DNA of 64,000 bases from Hoplostethus atlanticus. Its lineage: Eukaryota; Chordata; Actinopteri; Trachichthyiformes; Trachichthyidae. The position numbers and the translations under genes are program-made. Below the pieces are notes generated by a model. The model had not been told where the DNA came from. It saw nothing but the letters and a program-made list of their open reading frames with translations, and ran no database searches. The stretch is taken from positions 8,132,001-8,196,000 of the forward strand of contig JAXDDX010000004.1 of the NCBI GenBank assembly GCA_034670405.1. The letters run 5' to 3'. Of this stretch, positions 14,645 through 55,187 are shown in pieces; the stretch's first letter is position 1; every line of letters begins with the position of its first letter.

Positions 14645-17600
14645 TCCATATCCTCTGAACTGTTATCTCAAATTCAGCACATTCTGGAAACAGACCCTTG
14701 TACGTGTTCTGTCTCTCATCCATACCTCTTACACACAGACACACACATGCTTCTCAAAACTGCCATTTTTCTGTCAACTCCTCCACCAAACAGTTTGACA
14801 ACAGTGAGTCACCACTGCTTGTGCTGCCAGCCGCCAGTGTGTTTCAGCAATCGTCGGCTGAGTGACAGGTTGACACAGCACAAACAGCCCAGCTATGGAA
14901 GCTGGGAGAAGACCTGAAGACTCTTGGCATGGCCCGGGGCCCATTTCTTAAGACAGCACAAAAATACTGCTTTTTGTCAGTGTGAGCTTCAAACGTGGCT
15001 TGATTTCTGTTATACAATCTTATGCTGAGGGTTGAAATACCATCAGAATTCAGTAAACTGAAAAATCAATACTGTTTCTTCAATTTAGATTAAGGAAAAA
15101 TGTATTTAAGGTTAATTAAGAATCAGAATCAAATTTATTGGCCAAGTAAATTTGCACATACAAGGAATTTGACTCGGTGACGTTGGTGCATTAAAAAACA
15201 GACACAGACAATCAAATAAAGAAACTCAAACACTCAAACAATCAACAATCAATATATACAATGAAAGTTGTGTATTAGTGTAATTAAAGAACTCTGAGTA
15301 ATTACATACACACCAATAACTCTGTGCACAGTTAGTACTGCAGTTAGTTCCTGGCAGCAAATAAACACTATCACATGTGTTCACCTGTACTAATAGTATC
15401 TGAATCTGAGCATTTATCCAGGAGACAGTCTTATCTATGATTCAGCTGCTGCAACTAGTGATGCTGCTTCGAATGGGGGGAGGTCTGTGACTGCTGGCCC
15501 ATGCACTGAATAATTGATTCCCTATGGACCCCAAGCAAAGGCTAAAGGTTTTTATTTCTACACCTCCCTTCAGGAAATCAAATACTGTCATTGATTTTTT
15601 ACAAACTCATCATAGTTCTTTCATGGCTTAAAGGTTTGGCCACTGCAAGAGAAGGGAGGAAACAGCTGAGGATGCTTCAATGAAAAAGAGAAAAAAGAAT
15701 GAAGGTGGATGTGAAGAAGGACAGAGCGAAAGAGAGAGACAGATAGGCAGTCCAATATTCAGTGGAGCAGTGTTGAAGAAGCTAACATCAAATGGAGCCA
15801 TTCTAGCAGAAAGTGGAGCACACCAAATGCCATGTGCTTGGTTCTCTCTTTGGGGTTATTTCAAGCTTAAGAGATACAGAAGGACCCAGTGAGGCGCTGA
15901 AGTGAAGCATGCCTCCTCTATTCTCATACAATACACGAACAACATAGAAAGTGTATTACTCCAAATGGTTCTCTTTGCTCTCTTGGCAACCACATCACAC
16001 ACTATGGTTATGGTTCAATTGCAAGCTGTAGCTTGACCTCTGGTATTCTCCAGGAACTATGTCCATATGCTTCCTATGGAATACTATATACTGGGTACTA
16101 ATGTTAGTGAAAATGTCACGGCATTTGACACAGGACATCCCTCTGTTTTCTTTCTGTCCTTCTACTGTCCAACTGGGTGGAATCACTGGCTGAATAAACA
16201 ATTACCACATGGCCCTACTGGAAAAGAGAGCTCGACTCATCTTAGTCCAGCTTTTTTCCCATCGCCACACACCTTCACAAATCAAACTTTTAATTCAGCC
16301 AAATGCACACGGCACATCTCAAATCATTTTCCAATCCCAGCTCCAGTCGTACATGTCAGTTTGAAGCATTGACCTTAATTCTTGACTCATAATTCTGGGT
16401 GTGATATCAAGGGCAGTTTGGAGCATCGCCATGCTCTGTGTTATGAGGTCGGATGACACTTTTCAAAAGACACTATAAAATGTCTATTTTTATGATGGGA
16501 CTGATATGTTCTGCTTGTCCAATTCACACAAGTCCTGGTTCAGAGACATGATAAGCATAAAAGCTTCACAGGCCAGGTCAATACAAATGTGGAACGCATC
16601 AGACAAATGTAACTCAACCTCTGTGTATGTCATTGTTTATGTGTAAATAATCATGTTTTTCACGACAGGTCCATGTGCCCAGGTTCATCTCAGAGATTGA
16701 TCAGAATCATCTCTCTACTATATAGTCTAGCATTAGTACGAATCAGTGGGTCAAGACCTGAAGATTTACTGGATTCCTGGCTAAGATAGAAGATAGGATG
16801 TATATAAGGCTACAGTTTTCACATCAGAAAAAAACAGATATTTGGTGTTTCTGAGTGTTTCTGAGTTTCTTACAAAAAAGACAATAATGCTGCTGTGACC
16901 AGGAGCTTATTTCCTTATATGTATAGGTGTTTATTTTACTACTCTATTCCAATTATGGGTATATACATTCATTATTGAGCTCTTACATATTGTCAGTCTG
17001 TATATCAATAGATTAATCAATACATTGGGGAATGAAAATATATCTGCATTCCTATCATCTGTGTTGGAGCTAGGGCTATGGACCTTTTGTTGATATATCA
17101 GGCCGATATTGGCCTCTTATTAAAGGTCCCATATTATGGAAAACGGTTTATTCCTGGCGCTTATACATGTTCCACAGGAAATTACTTCCCTAAGCAGCTG
17201 AGAAAATTTGAAATCTGGAAGTCAACCCGTTTTTCTGTATTTTCCTTTTTCCCAAAACGGTGCCAAAGATAGGAGAAAAACAGCCCGTTTCAGAAAATGG
17301 TTCCTTTGGACGTCATAAGGTGCAAATCCAGCCCCTCTCAGAGCATGCCCACGCCCAGTTGAACAACCAATCCCATTTACGTCGTTGCAAAATGCAGCTC
17401 ACGGCAGTGCCGCAAGCCGTTGCTTATGGTGCATTCCATTGTACTCGGAAATCGATAATTCCGAGTCGGTATTCCTAACTTCCAATCTAAATGTGTTCCA
17501 GTGCATCTGCTCGGGAAAACATAATCGCCCGCTGCAAACTCATGTTTGTATGTAAGTCTCAGAATGTTACAAGATCTAAACTCAACATCAACTACTACAG

Positions 17601-20600
17601 CGCCATTAGTGAAGAGAATCGGCGCTATCACATTCGGACGCCGTTTTTTTCCGAGACACTGGAATGCACATTACTTTGCGACTGGTAAAAATTCGGGATA
17701 ATCAACTCTCCTTATTTTTTTTAAGGGGGAACCCCCGCAAGTCTCCCCAAAACCAGAAAAAGGGGAAATTTTTTTTTTTTTTCGGCAACGGCTACGTTTT
17801 TTTTTTCCCCGAGGGGAAAGAAATTTTAAAGGGGCTTGTTTAGCAACCAGGTTTGGGAAAAAGAAAAAAAAATTAAAATGGGGAAAATTTTAAATTGGGA
17901 ACCCCCCTTGGTAAAACTGTGGGTTTTTTGTTTTTATTTTAAAAAAAATTTGGGTAATTAAAAGGGGGAAAAAATTTTTGGGGGGCACCTTTTTTTGGGG
18001 ATTTTTTTTGGGGAAAAAAGCTGGAAAAAAAAAGTAAAAAAATTTTTTTTTTTTGGTTTGTGATCAATTTAAATTATTTGTTCGAAAAATTTTCTGTTTT
18101 GTCTTTGGGTTTCCAAAAACTTAGCACCATTAAAAAAACGGGGAGGTTGTTTTCCCTCTTTGGGAAAAAATTTACCCCAAAAATTTTTTTTAAAAACCCA
18201 AAAAAGTTCCCCCCCTTTTCTCAGTTTTATTTAATAACTTATCATGGCCTTTGCGGACGCCCCGGGTGTGTCCAATAATAAAAACCCGGGGAAAAAAATT
18301 TTCCGGGTTTCCCTTGGAAATAAGTGGACGTTATGCCCTTCCCCCCTTCAGCTAGCCAAACAGGGTCTCTTCCCCTTTTTTTGGGCCCCCCCTTTTTAAA
18401 GGGTTTAAAACTTTTTTTTTTTTTTTTTTTAAATTTTTTTTTCCCCCCCTTTTTTTTTCTTTAAAATTTTTTTTTTTTTTTTTTTTTAAAATAAATTTTT
18501 TTTAAATTAAAGGGGTCGCCCCCTTCCCCCCTTTTTCAAACCTTTTTGGGTTTTTTTAAAACATGTTTTTGGGCTTTGGGTTTTTAAAATCTTTAACCCT
18601 TTGTAAAACAGTTTGTTTTTAAATTTGGGGAAAAAAGGGTTTAAACCCAAAACAAAGCTGGGTTTTGGTTTTTTTGATTTTTAATTTAAAAGTTTGTTAA
18701 GGGGGGGTTTTAAATTTTGCCCAAAAATTTTTTTTTTTTTTAAAATGTAGATCCTTCCCCCCAGAAAAAAAAAGGGAAGGGGTTAAAAATTAAACCTTTA
18801 AAAAAAAAATTTAAGAAATTTTTTTAAAATTTTTTTTACTATTTTTTTTTGAAATTAAATTTTGTTTTCTTTGTTTTATTTTTCCATTTGGGGTTTTTCC
18901 CAAAACTGTAACTAAAAAATTTTTGGCCAAAAGGAAGGGTTTTTTTGGATTTTGTTTTATGGCGAGGTTTTTGTCCTTCCGAAAAAAGACTTGTTTTTTT
19001 TTGAAATTTTCAAAAAAAAGGAAAAAAAATTGGGTTTGGCCGGTTCGCCTTTAAAAACCCTTTGTTAACCATTTTTTTTTAACCCCATTGGAAGCTTTTT
19101 ACAAAAAAAAAAAATTTTTAAAGGTTAATGGATTCACCAAAAGTTGTTTAATAGTAATGAAGTTTAAAAGCAAAAAGGGACGGAGGAAATTTTTTTTTCA
19201 AGGGAAAAAACCTTTTTTTTCCTGGTTTTAATTTTTTGCAAAAAAATTAAAAGTTTTCAATTTCTGCACAAATAAAAATTTTTATTTTTTTGGCCCAATT
19301 TTAAAAAGATTAAGTTCTCATGAAAAAGGGTTTTTTGTTTCCCAAAAAATTATTCCTTTACCCCTAACCCAAAAAAAAAAAACGGGGGGGGGGTTTTTTG
19401 GGGGCCCCGGGGGGGGGGGGATTGTCAATTCTTTATTTAATTTAAATTTTAAAATCTGGGGAAAAAAAACCCTATTTTTAAAAAATTTTTTTTAAAAGAA
19501 CAGATAAAGGGTTAAAATTGCCCATAACCACCTGGTTCATCTGATTTTAATGGAAAAAAAACTTTAAAATTTTTAATTCCGTCCTTTTTAAAAATTATTT
19601 TTTTTTGGGTTTTTGCATTAAATTTTTTTTTTAAAACATTTCTGCGGGTCCTGGGAAATTTTAAACAAATCATTTTAGGGTTTTTTTCCAAATTGCAAAA
19701 AATCGAAAAAGTTTTTCATGAAATTTATTTCTTTTTGGGCCCCAAAAAAAATTACTCTTTTTTAAAAATCCCAAGAAAGTTAGGTATATGAAACAAAGAG
19801 GGTTTTTTTTTAAAAAAATTTTTTTAAGAAGGCATCCCCTTTTTCTTTTTTGGAAAAAAATTTCCAAAAGGGTGAAAAAAGGGGGTTGCCAAAAGTTTCC
19901 AAAATTGGTTAGTTTAAAAACCAGAAATTAAAAATCAAAAACCCACCCCTTATCCCCCCTTTCTTTTTGACAAATTTACCCCCCAAAAAAAGCAAACCCT
20001 TTTGTTTTTTAAAAAATTAATTTTGCCCCCGGGCTATTAAAACAAACAAATTCCCTTTTTTAAATTAATTTTTTTAAAAATACCAAGGTTCCCCCCCTCA
20101 ATTTACAATTTCCCCCTGAGGAAAAAAGGTTATGGTGAATGGGTTTTTGGCGTTTTAAATTGCTAGGTTTTTACCCAATCCCCCCAAATTTTGGGACCCA
20201 ATTGGGAAAACGCCGCCCTTTCCACCCCAAATTTGGGGGAGGGGTTTGGCCCGCTGGGACCAGTCCCCAAAATCAGGGGGGGGGAGGGGAAGGGGTCAGG
20301 GGACAAAACGTTCCAGTTACAAACCCCCGGGGTTTTATGGGTTTTTCCCAAATGGCCGGTAGACTTGTTGGCCATGGCCTGGCTTTTTTAAAAAGGCCTT
20401 TGGGCCGGACCCCTAAAAAAAAAAAAAAAAAAAAATTTGGGTTAGAAAAAATTTTTTTTTTTGGGGGGGCCCCCCAAAAAGTATTTTTTAAATATTTTAT
20501 TGGGGGGGGGCAAATACATTTTAATTTTAACTTTTAGGGTTTTTTTTGGGGAAAAAAAATTAAAATGAGAAAAATAAAATTTTTTTGTAGGCTTGGTTTA

Positions 20601-21227
20601 AAAGTTTTTTTAAATTTAAAACCTTTCCCCCCGTCAAAGTTTGTTTGTCTTTTTTTGTTCGCTAATGCCCCTTGCATTTTCTTCGCCCCCAAATTTTTTT
20701 GGCCAAGTTTTTCCCAAAAAAAATTTGGGGGGGGGGTAATACGGCATCCCCCAAAGGGTAATATAAAAAACCCCAAATTTGTCAAAAAATCCAAGTTTTT
20801 CCCCATAATGGTTTTTTTCCCTTTTAAATGAGGGGCTTTTTTAAATAACTTCAAACCGTGCCCCTTTTAAAAAAAAAGATCAAAAAAAGGGGAAAAGAAT
20901 TTTAAAATTTCTTTTAAAAAATTTTAAATTTCAAAAAAGCTTTTCCATTTTCCCAAATTTAAAAAATTTTTTGAAAATTTAAATTTTTTTTTGCTGGTTG
21001 CGTTTTTTCAATTTTTAAAAAATTAAAAAAATGGTTTTTGTCATATTGCTTAACGGGGGCATGAATTTTAAAATCCCTGTTACTGATCTCTGTCCACTCG
21101 CTCCCTGCTTCGCCTCAGCCCTGTCCACTACTCCGCTCTGTCTACCTCCCCGGTTTTTCTTATAATAAACCTTTGTTCATCTCCCTCTGAGTTTCGGTTC
21201 TGCTTTTGGGTCCACTGGGATACCGTA

Positions 21228-21277
<50 letters not shown>

Positions 21278-24200
21278 TCTAGCATTAGTACGAATCAGTG
21301 GGTCAAGCCCTGAAGATTTACTGGATTCCTGGCTAAGATAGAAGATAGGATGTATATAAGGCTACAGTTTTCACATCAGAAAAAAACAGATATTTGGTGT
21401 TTCTGAGTGTTTCTGAGTTTCTTACAAAAAAGACAATAATGCTGCTGTGACCAGGAGCTTGTTTCCTTATATGTATAGGTGTTTATTTTACTACTCTATT
21501 CCAATTATGGGTATATACATTCATTATTGAGCTCTTACATATTGTCAGTTTGTATATCAATAGATTAATCAATACATTGGGGAATGAAAATATATCTGCA
21601 TTCCTATATCATCTGTGTTGGAGCTAGGGCTATGGACCTATATATATGTTTGTTGATATATCAGGCCGATATTGGCCTCTTATTAAAGGTCCCATATTAT
21701 GGAAAACGGTTTATTCCTGGCGCTTATACATGTTCCACAGGAAATTACTTCCCTAAGCAGCTGAGAAAATTTGAAATCTGGAAGTCAACCCGTTTTTCTG
21801 TATTTTACTTTTTCCCAAAACGGTGCCAAAGATAGGAGAAAAACAGCCCGTTTCAGAAAATGGTTCCTTTGGACGTCATAAAGTGCAAATCCAGCCCCTC
21901 TCAGAGCATGCCCACGCCCAGTTGAACAACCAATCCCATTTACGTCGTCGCAACGGCAACGGCAGTGCCGCAAGCCGTTGCTTATGATGCATTCCATTGT
22001 ACTCGGAAATCGATAATTCCGAGTCGGTATTCCTAACTTCCAATCTAAATGTGTTCCAGTGCATCTGCTCGGGAAAACATAATCGCCCGCAGCAAACTCA
22101 TGTTTGTATGGTAAGTCTCAGAATGTTACAAGCATCTAAACTCAACATCAACTACTACAGCGCCATTAGTGAAGAGAATCGGCGCATATCACATTCGGAC
22201 GCCGTTTTTTCTGAGTACACTGGAATGCACCATTACTTTGCAACGACTGAAGCTAAAACAACATATCAGGAGATATATCAACTCTCCAGTTATTATTTTG
22301 TAGGATGCAGGCAGCAACATAGATCCCTGCACAGTCTCCCAACACGCGAAAATGCCAGGACAGAGTGGATTAATTTTATTTTTAACGGCAACGGCTACAG
22401 TTTTTTCTGTGTGTGATGATCAGTCCTCAGACTGCTTGAGCAACGGCAGGATTAGCATCTAAATTGAAGCTTAAAGATGGAGCAATTCATAAGGTACGTG
22501 ACCCATCTGCAAAATTGGAATCTGTAAGTGTCACCATGTTTTGATTTAATTTACCAAATTAGTCTGGTTAGTATATTCACTGCTGGTTAGCTAACGAGCT
22601 AGCGGGGCTAGCCACGGGCTTGTTGGGCGTGGAAGAAGTAAGAAAACTAAAGCTGGAGTCATTAAAAGTAAAGTAAAGTAAAAGTAAAGTTATTGGTTGG
22701 AGTCAGGACTCATCTTAAAGTTATTTGTTGGGACCAGTGTCTGTTTTATAAGTCTGTCGAACGTGTCAGGCTTGGTAAACTTTAGCCACCATTAGTACAA
22801 TCGTGTTTGGTTGTTTGGCTGCGCTGTTTGGATGCAAATAGATTGCATCCAATAATATATTGGTTAACTAGCTCAACAAAATTGTCAATCCTAGCTTGTC
22901 TGCAAGTTGTATTCAATAAGCTTATGGACATGAGCCATAAATAGACCGGCTACAGCAGAGAGTGTCGCTCACACATCCACATACACAAACACAAGGCACG
23001 AAAGTACAATATTACACAGAATTGTTATCATTGAGAAACTAAGTGGAACCGCCTCAGCTGCCTCTTCCCATTCTGGGTCAGACTCCGGCTCAAACATGTA
23101 CGGTCTCAGTGTTGGTTCTGGAGCGGCCGCCATGGTTATGGTAGATTTCTGCATCAAGCTTATTTGTTTACCTTGAGCAGCATGGGCGCTCTGCTCTCCG
23201 CCTCCGCCAGGCGATCGCGTGTAGGTTGTATGTAATGAGCACTGCTCTGATTGGCCGCCTCACGCCTCACTCACGGAGTGAGGCGGCCAATCAGAGCAGT
23301 GCTCATTACATACAACCTCCACGCCCTCAAAACAGCCTGTTCTTTACAATGGAGAAAATGAGAGACTGAAACACACACCACAGAAGCTGGTTTTAGGATT
23401 TTTTTTTATATAGACTTCACAAACGTCTTGTAAAGACCCCCAGGAACAGTTTAAATAGCCCAAAATGAGTACAATACCCCCCCTTTAAATATCAGACTGT
23501 CAGATCCTCCCTGCAGCTACATAGAAGACATAAAGACATAAACAACTTTACAGACTGTAAAACCTGAAAGAAATCTCTTTGCTCATTTTATTCACTCATT
23601 TAATTATTCATATTATTTTTATTGCAAATTAATTATTGATTGATTGCTTAATGTATCCCAGTGTTTTCCTGTCCAGGTGTCTGGTGGTCATCCTGCCTTA
23701 AAGAGCTGCTAACCCTAAACAAATTTCTGGGTTTCAATGGAGAGTTTTAGTGTATAGCTTGTAGTTTATGCTGTTTCAGAGGCTTTTTCCGTCCTTCCAG
23801 AAATACAATGTACTTGTATTTTTGGTATGAAAATGGTCAAATTTAAAGATATGGAATATTAAAAGATATGGCTATTTGTGACTTCAGTATAAAAATATCA
23901 GTATCAGCCTTCAAAACCCATATTGTTGAAGCTAGTATTTTTTTATGCACTGATTAAGGATTCAGTCTTTAGTAGCAACAAAATCAATACAGAGCTTCAA
24001 TCGGCATTCACAATAGTTCGCTCTAGAGTAGTAGTATGAAGTATGAATACTGCAAAAAGGTCACAGTGAGTGAACTTTCTTTCTTCAAGGATAAACATCT
24101 TTTTTTTTTCTCTCCCTGGTTATTTACATTCTGTTATGCAACAAATAAACAGTGCTGGTCAATTACTGCACAAACTAACATGTACTGTACAGTATATTTG

Positions 24201-27200
24201 GCAACAGATCTGAAGTGTCACTGAGCATTATGAGTGTCTCTATGAAGACCCTGAAGGTATTATTGTGCTTCCTGCTGAAGGATGGACTTGCCTGCCTCTA
24301 CCCATGACATTTAGCCATCAAAACACAAAACACAACCGGGGGGGAAAACAGTGCGGTTGGGGGGGCCGGGGGGGTTCTGATGTCGCACAAGTCTCTATGT
24401 ATTACATTTAATGACTCAACTCTGCGGGAAGAGCCCTAATAACCATCTGAATTGGGATTATTAGTGGTACATGGATGTCAACATGCTTTCATCAAGATGT
24501 GGAATTAGCGACCACAGAGCGGTGTGTCATGGCACTGATGTACATGGCACTGATCTTTTGAAGTGTGACAAAAGAAACTGAAAGACTGAATGGTCACGTG
24601 CACGTGAGAAGATTTGTAATGATGATTTATTGTCAGCTTTCTGTGTGCATTAAATTGTATATTACACATTTCATGCAGGTCCTGGAGATTTCACAAGCAT
24701 ATATCATTTGACGGGTTTCATTCCAAATTGCTATAAATCGATAAAAGATTCTCATGGAATTGATTACTCAGTATTCCAGACCACAGATAATAATCATACT
24801 TTTTTAAAGCAAATGCCATTAGAAAGCTTATGGTATATGATATTACACTATGAGTTGTTGTTTTTTGCATGCCAGCAATCATTTGCTAAGATTAGGCATC
24901 ACTTTTTTCTTTTTGGAAAATAAAGTCTTCATTTGTTTAAGGACTCTGTGAACATAAAAGGACTTAGCACAGATGATCTCCAAGATCATGTGATTAGCTA
25001 ATGAAACCAGAATTAACTGCCTCAAATAGCCACCCCCATCTATCAAACCAACCTAATGACTCTATTCTGATTACTTTCACCTGCCAATCAAATCTCAGCA
25101 TTATTTTTCATATTCTCCTTTCCTGTCCTCTTCCCCTCACACAAACCTTAACTGATGCCCTGGCTGTCAGAGCAGCTGGAGGGAGAAAACAAGGAAAGGA
25201 TTCTGCTATTAAAAGTCAGATGCACATCATGTCTCGCTTGACTCTAAATGCTCATCTTCACTTATACGGACTCACCATGAGTGCCTCCAGCTCATCAGGA
25301 GTGACACATGGATGCCTCTGCAGGAACAAGGCCTTCTCCATGGTGATGATGGTCTTCTGGTCATTTTCAAATGGCTGCTCCAGCGCTCTGAACGCCAATC
25401 CTCCACAAACCAGGTAGAGCACTACCACTATGAACACCGCCAGCACCGTCTTCCACTTCATCACTGAGTGGAGGGCTGCTAACGAGCTGTCGCAGCTGGC
25501 ATCCATGCTGGCCACCAGACTGGCAGAGCGGGAGGAGATGGAAAGGCGTGGCAGCGGACAGTAACCGTTGGCCTTAGTGTCACAACCCATGGGGTTCTGC
25601 ATGGTTGCCACACTGGCCTGGACTAGACTTGACTTGGCCATGGCAGGCTGGTCTTTTTTGGGAGGGACCAAGTTGGTCTGGACCGCCACTAGGAAAAGAG
25701 ATTGAGACAAAGACAAGAATACATAGTGGGTTAGAAATGTGGTTTATTTTTGTGCTGGAGGACGCCATGACAGCAAAACAGTATCTTGTGAAAGTGATTC
25801 TGATGGTGGGAAGCAAATGACAATTGGTTAACATTTCTAACTCTTTACAGTCAGGTTATGAAAGTCGTGAAGAAAGAAAGGTTGAAGAATGAGAAAAATC
25901 CAAACTGTTTTTTGTAGGCAGTTAGAGGCTTTATAAGCTTATGTTTTGACATGATATTACAGAGCACCATTTCCCATGTCAATGTGTGTGTACATCATGT
26001 CTGTTCTTTGTTCTGATCGGTAATAGCCACATTGGTGCATTGTCCTCTGCAGCCGACATTGTCCCTTGACGACCAAGTTCTTCAGAAATACTGGAGGGGG
26101 TGTGGAGATGACGGCATCCCAGTAGGCTAATCATAAAAGACGCACCCCAGTTTGTCACCGAGGCAACATGCCAAGTTTTTCCACCTGAGCTAGAGTGCTC
26201 AGTTGGCTGACTGCTGTCTCACTGAGGGGCTTTTTCAACTAGTAGCCTTCTTAGACCGTGACCACCTTTATTGATCACTAACAATCATGATCAAAATCAT
26301 GGAGATTAGACGATTTTAAAATTTCATTTTAAATTGTAATTAATTTAAAAAGTAGCCTATTTCCATTCTCCAAATTAAATTAATTTAGCCAAATTCTAAT
26401 TTCCATTTTCACGGTTAAAGCTGGAATATGCAGCTTTTTCACATTAGGTTAACAATAAATAAATAGGATATATGATACTTTATCAGTCTGTGTCTGTCTG
26501 TGAATCAGTGTGTACATGTCTAATAAAACCTTTTTGCCTGAAATCGGCTTTTCAATGATGTTCGGTATGTTTTGGGTTGTGTACCATTTTGCTGTTGGCC
26601 TGCCATATAGGCATGGCCAGTAGCCATCTATATCTTCTGACCCACATTGTTTGTGTGGGCAAGTCCTGCACACAAATCGTGTTGTTTCACTTGAAGTTGT
26701 TCCTACACTTACTGACTGTAACAGACAATCAGCATGAGAATATGATGTGAAGGCAGTGAGCTTTCTGTGCATCACCACTCCAAATCCAAATGATTTCATC
26801 GATTTTACTTCACCTACAAAGTAAGAGACAATCATATCTACCACTTCCCAACACAGATGCCAATAAAACATACATATAAAATACACATGGTGGCATGAAA
26901 TAAAAGAAGATAAGAACTGGCACATCCTCGCCTTAGCAATCCTAACAAATGTCTGATATTGCTGTAGCCATCCAGAGGTAAATGATGGGTTAATGATAAA
27001 ATATTGAGGAAGAGTGGCTGCTGGGCGTCTTCACTGTCGAGTATTACAAGCTAATTACATGAATGTGCCCTGAATGCTCCCATAGCTGCACTCCAAACCT
27101 AGAAGCAATCACTGAAATACTACAATATTATAACTAAAATGTTTGGTAAATCTGACAGCTGCACCCATACTGAAATTGAGTATCAGAGTTTAAAAGTTGT

Positions 27201-34004: not shown

Positions 34005-34142
<138 letters not shown>

Positions 34143-41633: not shown

Positions 41634-55187
<13,554 letters not shown>

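Follow-up and report, generated by a model that had tools for sequence, protein, structure and literature searches.

In the genome assembly of Hoplostethus atlanticus, a false tandem duplication was found that very probably is an error of assembly and not biology, produced when two alleles of one locus were joined end to end. The duplication sits in a stretch of 64,000 bases (contig C4, positions 8,132,001-8,196,000; called the window below) of this assembly, which comprises 632.8 Mb in 1,161 contigs, and the segment is supported as lying in an intron of KCNK10 (TREK-2). About 0.97 kb of the first copy is readable. The rest of that copy is a blurred, run-rich image of the sequence that follows the second copy's start, and it includes a degraded second copy of a KCNK10 exon.

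The features of the duplication are as follows.

16,723-17,549, plus strand: copy 1, clean part, 97.5% matched, with allele-like differences
17,550-17,689, plus strand: copy 1, onset of decay, with mainly single-base deletions at first
About 17,690-21,070, plus strand: blurred, deletion-rich image of about 22,250-26,500, continuing copy 1 (piecewise scan and full alignment)
20,080-20,453, minus strand: blurred second copy of the KCNK10 exon, with approximate edges read off the full alignment
21,074-21,230, plus strand: last ~155 bp of a 561-bp long terminal repeat (LTR), left side cut off, ending in ...CCGTAACA (defined by genomic LTR copies)
21,230-21,274, plus strand: (AT)n tract joining the LTR end to copy 2
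21,275-26,536, plus strand: copy 2, clean, running on into the right-hand flank; the right edge of the duplication is placed within ~100 bases
25,261-25,743, minus strand: open reading frame (ORF) holding the intact KCNK10 exon (PDB 4bw5 match)

Two clean copies with allele-like differences

A sequence-only reading of this DNA had reported a segment of ~960 bases that occurs twice in the same orientation. This was borne out: a 0.97-kb segment is present in direct orientation at 16,723-17,690 and 21,275-22,262, with an offset of 4,552-4,563 bases. Three pairs of blocks at this spacing are 99% identical (16,723-17,022 with 21,275-21,574; 17,086-17,385 with 21,649-21,948; 17,401-17,552 with 21,959-22,110). 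When 16,723-17,549 was compared with copy 2, 10 substitutions, 5 inserted bases and 11 deleted bases were counted per 833 reference bases. The clean copies thus differ by 1.2% substitutions plus small indels, with 97.5% of reference bases matched over the clean part of copy 1. These differences appear allele-like. The earlier impression that the small indels resemble two haplotypes is in keeping with these counts, the phase itself being presumed. Copy 2 is continuous with the right-hand flank, as had also been noticed. In the genome, 21,275-21,575 was placed at two positions, both in the window (two of two candidates scored).

The block after copy 1 is a blurred copy of the following sequence

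The block between the clean part of copy 1 and the LTR end is dominated by homopolymer runs. Between 18,001 and 21,000, runs of at least 3 bases account for 65-75% of every 500-base interval (six in all), compared with a mean of 22% for all 128 intervals of the window. Within the window, triplets of consecutive runs of at least 3 bases occur at 35.5 per kb inside the block and at 0.2 per kb outside it. The G+C content is 27-31% in five of the six intervals and 42% in the sixth. No second blurred block was seen in the window by the 500-base run scan or by a separate blur check, the latter covering 63 of the 64 kb.

Collinearity was examined by comparing 250-base pieces of the block with both strands of the remaining window sequence; the same pieces read backwards served as the control. 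The best placement of 24 of 26 pieces fell on the expected diagonal, in order and on the same strand, along 22,250 to ~26,500; the backward control gave 1 of 26. An earlier scan had placed 25 of 27 pieces starting before 21,025 on the diagonal, and its two misses lie at 18,275-18,650, which corresponds approximately to the position of a 50-bp inverted repeat (23,217-23,324).

A full alignment through the block, over 4,268 reference bases, yielded 63.1% match, 12.7% substitution, 3.4% insertion and 24.2% deletion. Among the 542 substitutions, 527 (97%) equal a neighbouring base of the block, and in the alignment the number of runs falls from 3,102 in the source to 1,293 in the block. The block sequence is a low-pass filtered form of its source, in which short runs vanish and long runs widen. 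A run-length-compressed alignment with cheap gaps gave no clear source, since loose gap costs let every place score alike and made that scan uninformative; scans of the raw sequence then gave the source.

Ordinary search recognises little of this. Between the block and its source, one 33-base match was returned by blastn and none by megablast. In comparisons of the two copies, megablast aligned bases 1-957 of copy 1 and blastn bases 1-999, the latter with a further match of 33 bases. Since the block is a collinear blurred continuation of copy 1, the duplicated sequence amounts to ~5.2 kb rather than 0.96 kb. The sequence-only reading had described the first copy as decaying into homopolymer noise. 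The decay and the richness in runs were seen as described; the block is, however, not noise but a collinear, degraded copy of the next ~4.2 kb.

A broken copy of the KCNK10 exon

The source of the block includes the minus-strand ORF 25,261-25,743, which matches KCNK10/TREK-2 (PDB 4bw5, E 2.5e-23, ORF residues 91-156). The assembly therefore carries a spurious, disrupted version of this exon within the intron. One frame translated over 20,010-20,480 contains stops.

Error ramps and the junction

The transition from clean to blurred sequence on the left is a ramp. The earliest errors, from 17,551 on, are mainly single-base deletions, and differences amount to 2-4% per 50 bases over 17,500-17,649. 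Unmatched reference bases then reach ~25% at 17,650-17,699 and 31% at 17,700-17,799, with a plateau of 32-45% from 17,800.

The right-hand side shows an abrupt change of source. For the interval 20,870-21,073 the score is 87.4 with 26,250-26,560 and 18-20 with the upstream LTR portion, the null maximum being 55.0. Because this interval fits 26,250-26,560 and not the upstream LTR, the switch of source is placed at ~21,07x. The sequence that follows is the truncated LTR end. Elsewhere in the genome the LTR measures 561-564 bp in the three pairs measured, whose members lie ~4.94 kb apart, and it has many genome copies (the best 40 of 224 candidates were scored). Five LTR loci were aligned and three were used; the other two (L004 and L007) gave no proper alignment, probably because of opposite orientation. 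Compared with the three genomic copies, single-base deletions in the LTR end thin out rightwards over 21,083-21,214. This fall-off mirrors the left-hand error ramp. The left neighbours of the two copies differ by the LTR end and the (AT)n tract.

Blurred sequence elsewhere in the assembly

A 15-base run pattern gave 133 matches in the genome and its backward control 91; a 17-base run pattern gave 56 and its control 45. Near-equal control counts are expected if blurred sequence yields run patterns of any order. Pattern counts alone are no measure of blur because the backward controls are nearly as high. The 156 hits listed (100 of the 133 and all 56) fall into 112 places, 21 of which have more than one hit within 6 kb, compared with a mean of 0.2 chance pairs. 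The clustering of the hits, not their number, measures blur. Among 20 loci returned for the 15-base pattern, 12 are ordinary sequence; the other 8 are blurred and represent six places, one of them the present locus.

Contig ends and interiors were compared with the same blur threshold. Two of 40 contig ends passed it (the ends of C3 and C400; L088 and L101), three were mildly blurred (C9 end, C100 start and C500 end; L094, L077 and L102), and the remaining 35 were ordinary. Among 80 pieces of 1,500 bases from contig interiors, one passed the threshold, and it came from the present locus (L033). The blurring fault is not local to this locus, since blurred blocks sit elsewhere in the assembly, some of them at contig ends. 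In the blurred blocks L063-L065 the blur is stronger than in the block described here.

Two of these loci have neighbouring sequence of their own character. In L065 (C118:215,501-225,500), a long GATAGGTTGATAGGTAGA-type tandem array gives way to very strong homopolymer blur that occupies the remainder of the stretch, more than 7 kb in length. L063 (C1:16,297,001-16,307,000) has a unit of ~1,878 bp twice in tandem at 99-100% identity directly before its blurred block, and contains 152 N.

Proposed origin of the duplication

A failed haplotype merge is favoured because the copies differ at the level of alleles, their left neighbours differ, 21,275-21,575 occurs only at two places, and the error ramps meet at one junction. 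The individual would have been heterozygous here. In allele A, the left flank would be followed directly by the segment, and allele B would carry an LTR retrotransposon or solo LTR inserted in the TA-rich stretch just left of it. The assembler may have extended allele A rightwards until the consensus collapsed to blur, with ~3.4 kb written for 4.3 kb of real sequence. The blurred end of A would then have been joined to the left end of B, which begins inside the repeated LTR. This would leave ~5.2 kb falsely duplicated in tandem, the first copy being unreadable over about four fifths of its length and containing a broken copy of the KCNK10 exon. Haplotype origin, read technology and assembler are inferred here.

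This agrees with the sequence-only reading, which had proposed a failed haplotype merge; the LTR/(AT)n difference on the left and the ramps on both sides of ~21,07x make it the best reading of the locus. The other half of that proposal, a low-quality read tail embedded in the contig, is right in that degraded sequence is present. The degraded part is not plain noise, however, but a copy of the next ~4.2 kb, exon included. With one copy removed, the intron becomes 4,552 bases shorter. The earlier estimate of an intron ~4.5 kb shorter fits the LTR-free haplotype; the LTR-bearing one may be longer.

The blur itself is presumably a product of consensus calling or base calling. In a toy simulation, three sources of error were modelled: independent errors, Gaussian blur of the base signal, and a majority consensus built from 10 misregistered reads. 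With independent errors set to the observed rates, the mean run was 1.32, 35% of substitutions were neighbour-equal and no run triplets arose, compared with an observed mean run of 2.61 and 97%. Independent base errors in one read were rejected as the source of the blur, as the simulation misses both the observed run length and the neighbour-equal share. Gaussian blur gave a mean run of 3.16 and triplets at 34.9 per kb, but 3% deletions. The misregistered consensus gave a mean run of 2.49, 25% deletions and 97% neighbour-equal substitutions, but triplets at 12.6 per kb. Signal blur and misregistered consensus each match a part of the observed signature, and no setting tried in the simulation matches the whole.

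Several observations weigh against the joining of two alleles. A recent true duplication could also give the allele-like differences. The last 73 bases before 21,074 score 25.4, below the null maximum of 26.2, which assigns them to neither source. There is no N at the junction or anywhere in the window, and a simple scaffolding join is therefore not visible. When the blurred blocks L063-L065 were compared with their own flanking sequence over 10 kb, no consistent match emerged (best isolated z 4.3; for L065 just 2.35 kb of clean flank entered the comparison), and evidence for a join of two alleles comes from the present block alone. No third copy of 23,490-26,540 was found among the best 40 of 3,323 candidates, the 40 being filled by the mobile element described below.

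Alternative explanations

It is improbable that ~5.2 kb were genuinely duplicated in tandem, the two copies being separated by an LTR fragment and the first being merely badly sequenced. Such a duplication would account for two copies in tandem in one contig with no N, and 1.2% substitutions suit a young duplication as well as two alleles. In a genuine tandem duplication, both copies are intact and run end to start. Here, copy 2 is continuous with its flank, copy 1 is unreadable past 17,690, and a truncated LTR lies between the two. For this to hold, the LTR truncation would have to coincide precisely with the boundary between the copies, and the two flanking error ramps would have to converge there by chance. 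Moreover, the blurred blocks at other contig ends and within contigs show that this assembly produces such blocks.

Slightly less probable still is that a single chimeric or very poor long read is the sole support over the join, with allele A misread and the jump to the LTR a chimera within the read. The concentration of errors on one side of a sharp switch and the predominance of single-base deletions among the early errors suit such a read. An ordinary noisy read does not fit, as the run length and neighbour-equal share in the toy simulation indicate; a read with signal-level blur may be compatible. This explanation differs from the allele join described above only in where the join arose.

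Biological expansion of runs by slippage or hypermutation, which could account for the 527 of 542 neighbour-equal substitutions through copying of neighbours, deserves almost no credence as the cause of the erosion of copy 1, because the error leaps from ~4% to ~40% within some 250 bases and ends at the junction, exon and intron are hit alike, and like blur stands at the very ends of unrelated contigs.

Comparison with described assembly errors

False duplications of two kinds have been described, those from divergent haplotypes (heterotype) and those from sequence errors near contig boundaries (homotype) (PMC8081667, PMC9516828). False exon gains were classed by Ko et al. 2022 (PMC9516828), and a combined heterotype and homotype example is mentioned in a figure legend of Rhie et al. 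2021 (PMC8081667). Judged by the passages of these papers on the two kinds, the present case resembles the heterotype in that two alleles seem to stand in succession in one assembly with allele-level differences and a coding exon falsely gained. It differs in that most of one copy is blurred past recognition by BLAST and no N gap separates the copies; the window has no N, yet a sharp switch of source at ~21,07x has error ramps on either side. It resembles the homotype in that sequence errors would have blocked the merging of two versions of one locus, and an error-rich copy is present. The clean parts, however, carry allele-like differences, which makes the case at best a mixture of both types, and the join lies inside contig C4, where a former contig boundary can only be presumed. 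The duplication thus appears to be an artefact of a known kind, a false heterotype duplication with a contribution of the homotype.

Poor long-read gap closing, as treated in part of the DENTIST paper (PMC8848313), is a further likeness, since low-identity sequence is set between clean contig sequence. For one of the tools compared there, 84.2% identity is given; here the match is 63%, with a blur that lengthens runs. In addition, the inserted sequence here belongs past the start of the next piece and bridges no true gap.

The readable blur is the sole unusual part of this case. No published description of such a blur was found in literature searches, which comprised listings and some passages. 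It is suggested tentatively, and with more doubt than conviction, that blurred blocks form a poorly described class of assembly error, in which the consensus retains order and strand while single bases are lost and runs are lengthened. If this is true, many places in this assembly may conceal second alleles or otherwise lost sequence, beyond the reach of ordinary search but recognisable by loose alignment, and a simple blur detector for public assemblies is conceivable. About four fifths of the present duplication is invisible to BLAST, and duplicate purging based on alignment may miss such cases. A KCNK10 annotation for this species would contain an incorrect intron length as well as an additional, broken copy of an exon. 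Because similar blur is present elsewhere in this assembly, including at contig ends, masking of blurred sequence is advised ahead of gene or repeat studies.

The mobile element inside the duplication

The duplicated part contains a mobile element, which from its TTAA boundaries looks like a TTAA-inserting element of the piggyBac type.

21,683-23,489, plus strand: mobile element of 1.8 kb, TTAA-bounded, inside the duplication; its first part is also in copy 1 from ~17,120

The 50-bp inverted repeat at 23,217-23,324 lies inside this element and has an 8-bp spacer. The element was full-length at 2 of nine other loci aligned; the other seven gave the internal inverted repeat alone, likely because those loci are in the opposite orientation. 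Its right two-thirds (22,300-23,489) were scored at 39 other places with 93-99% identity. In the first part of the element, copy 1 is 98.6 and 99.1% identical to two other genomic copies, and copy 2 is 96.8 and 97.2% identical to them. Two independent insertions of the same element were rejected as the cause of the repeat: on one side the repeat starts ~400 bases before the element, and on the other the blurred copy extends ~3 kb beyond it.

Gene context of the window

The intronic position of the segment is supported by one KCNK10 exon identified by search and a presumed last exon. The exon in ORF 25,261-25,743 presumably encodes the first transmembrane segment, and the sequence at ~7.6-8.3 kb, which gave no Pfam family, is taken to be the last coding exon. 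Pfam comparison of four ORFs, the KCNK10 exon included, returned no family. On the plus strand, the ORFs at 49,874-51,604 (without a Pfam family) and 54,351-54,695 resemble exons of PTPN21. Together with KCNK10 they would be in keeping with what we take to be the vertebrate gene order KCNK10-SPATA7-PTPN21. A (GAGA)n array of 136 bases lies at 34,005-34,140.

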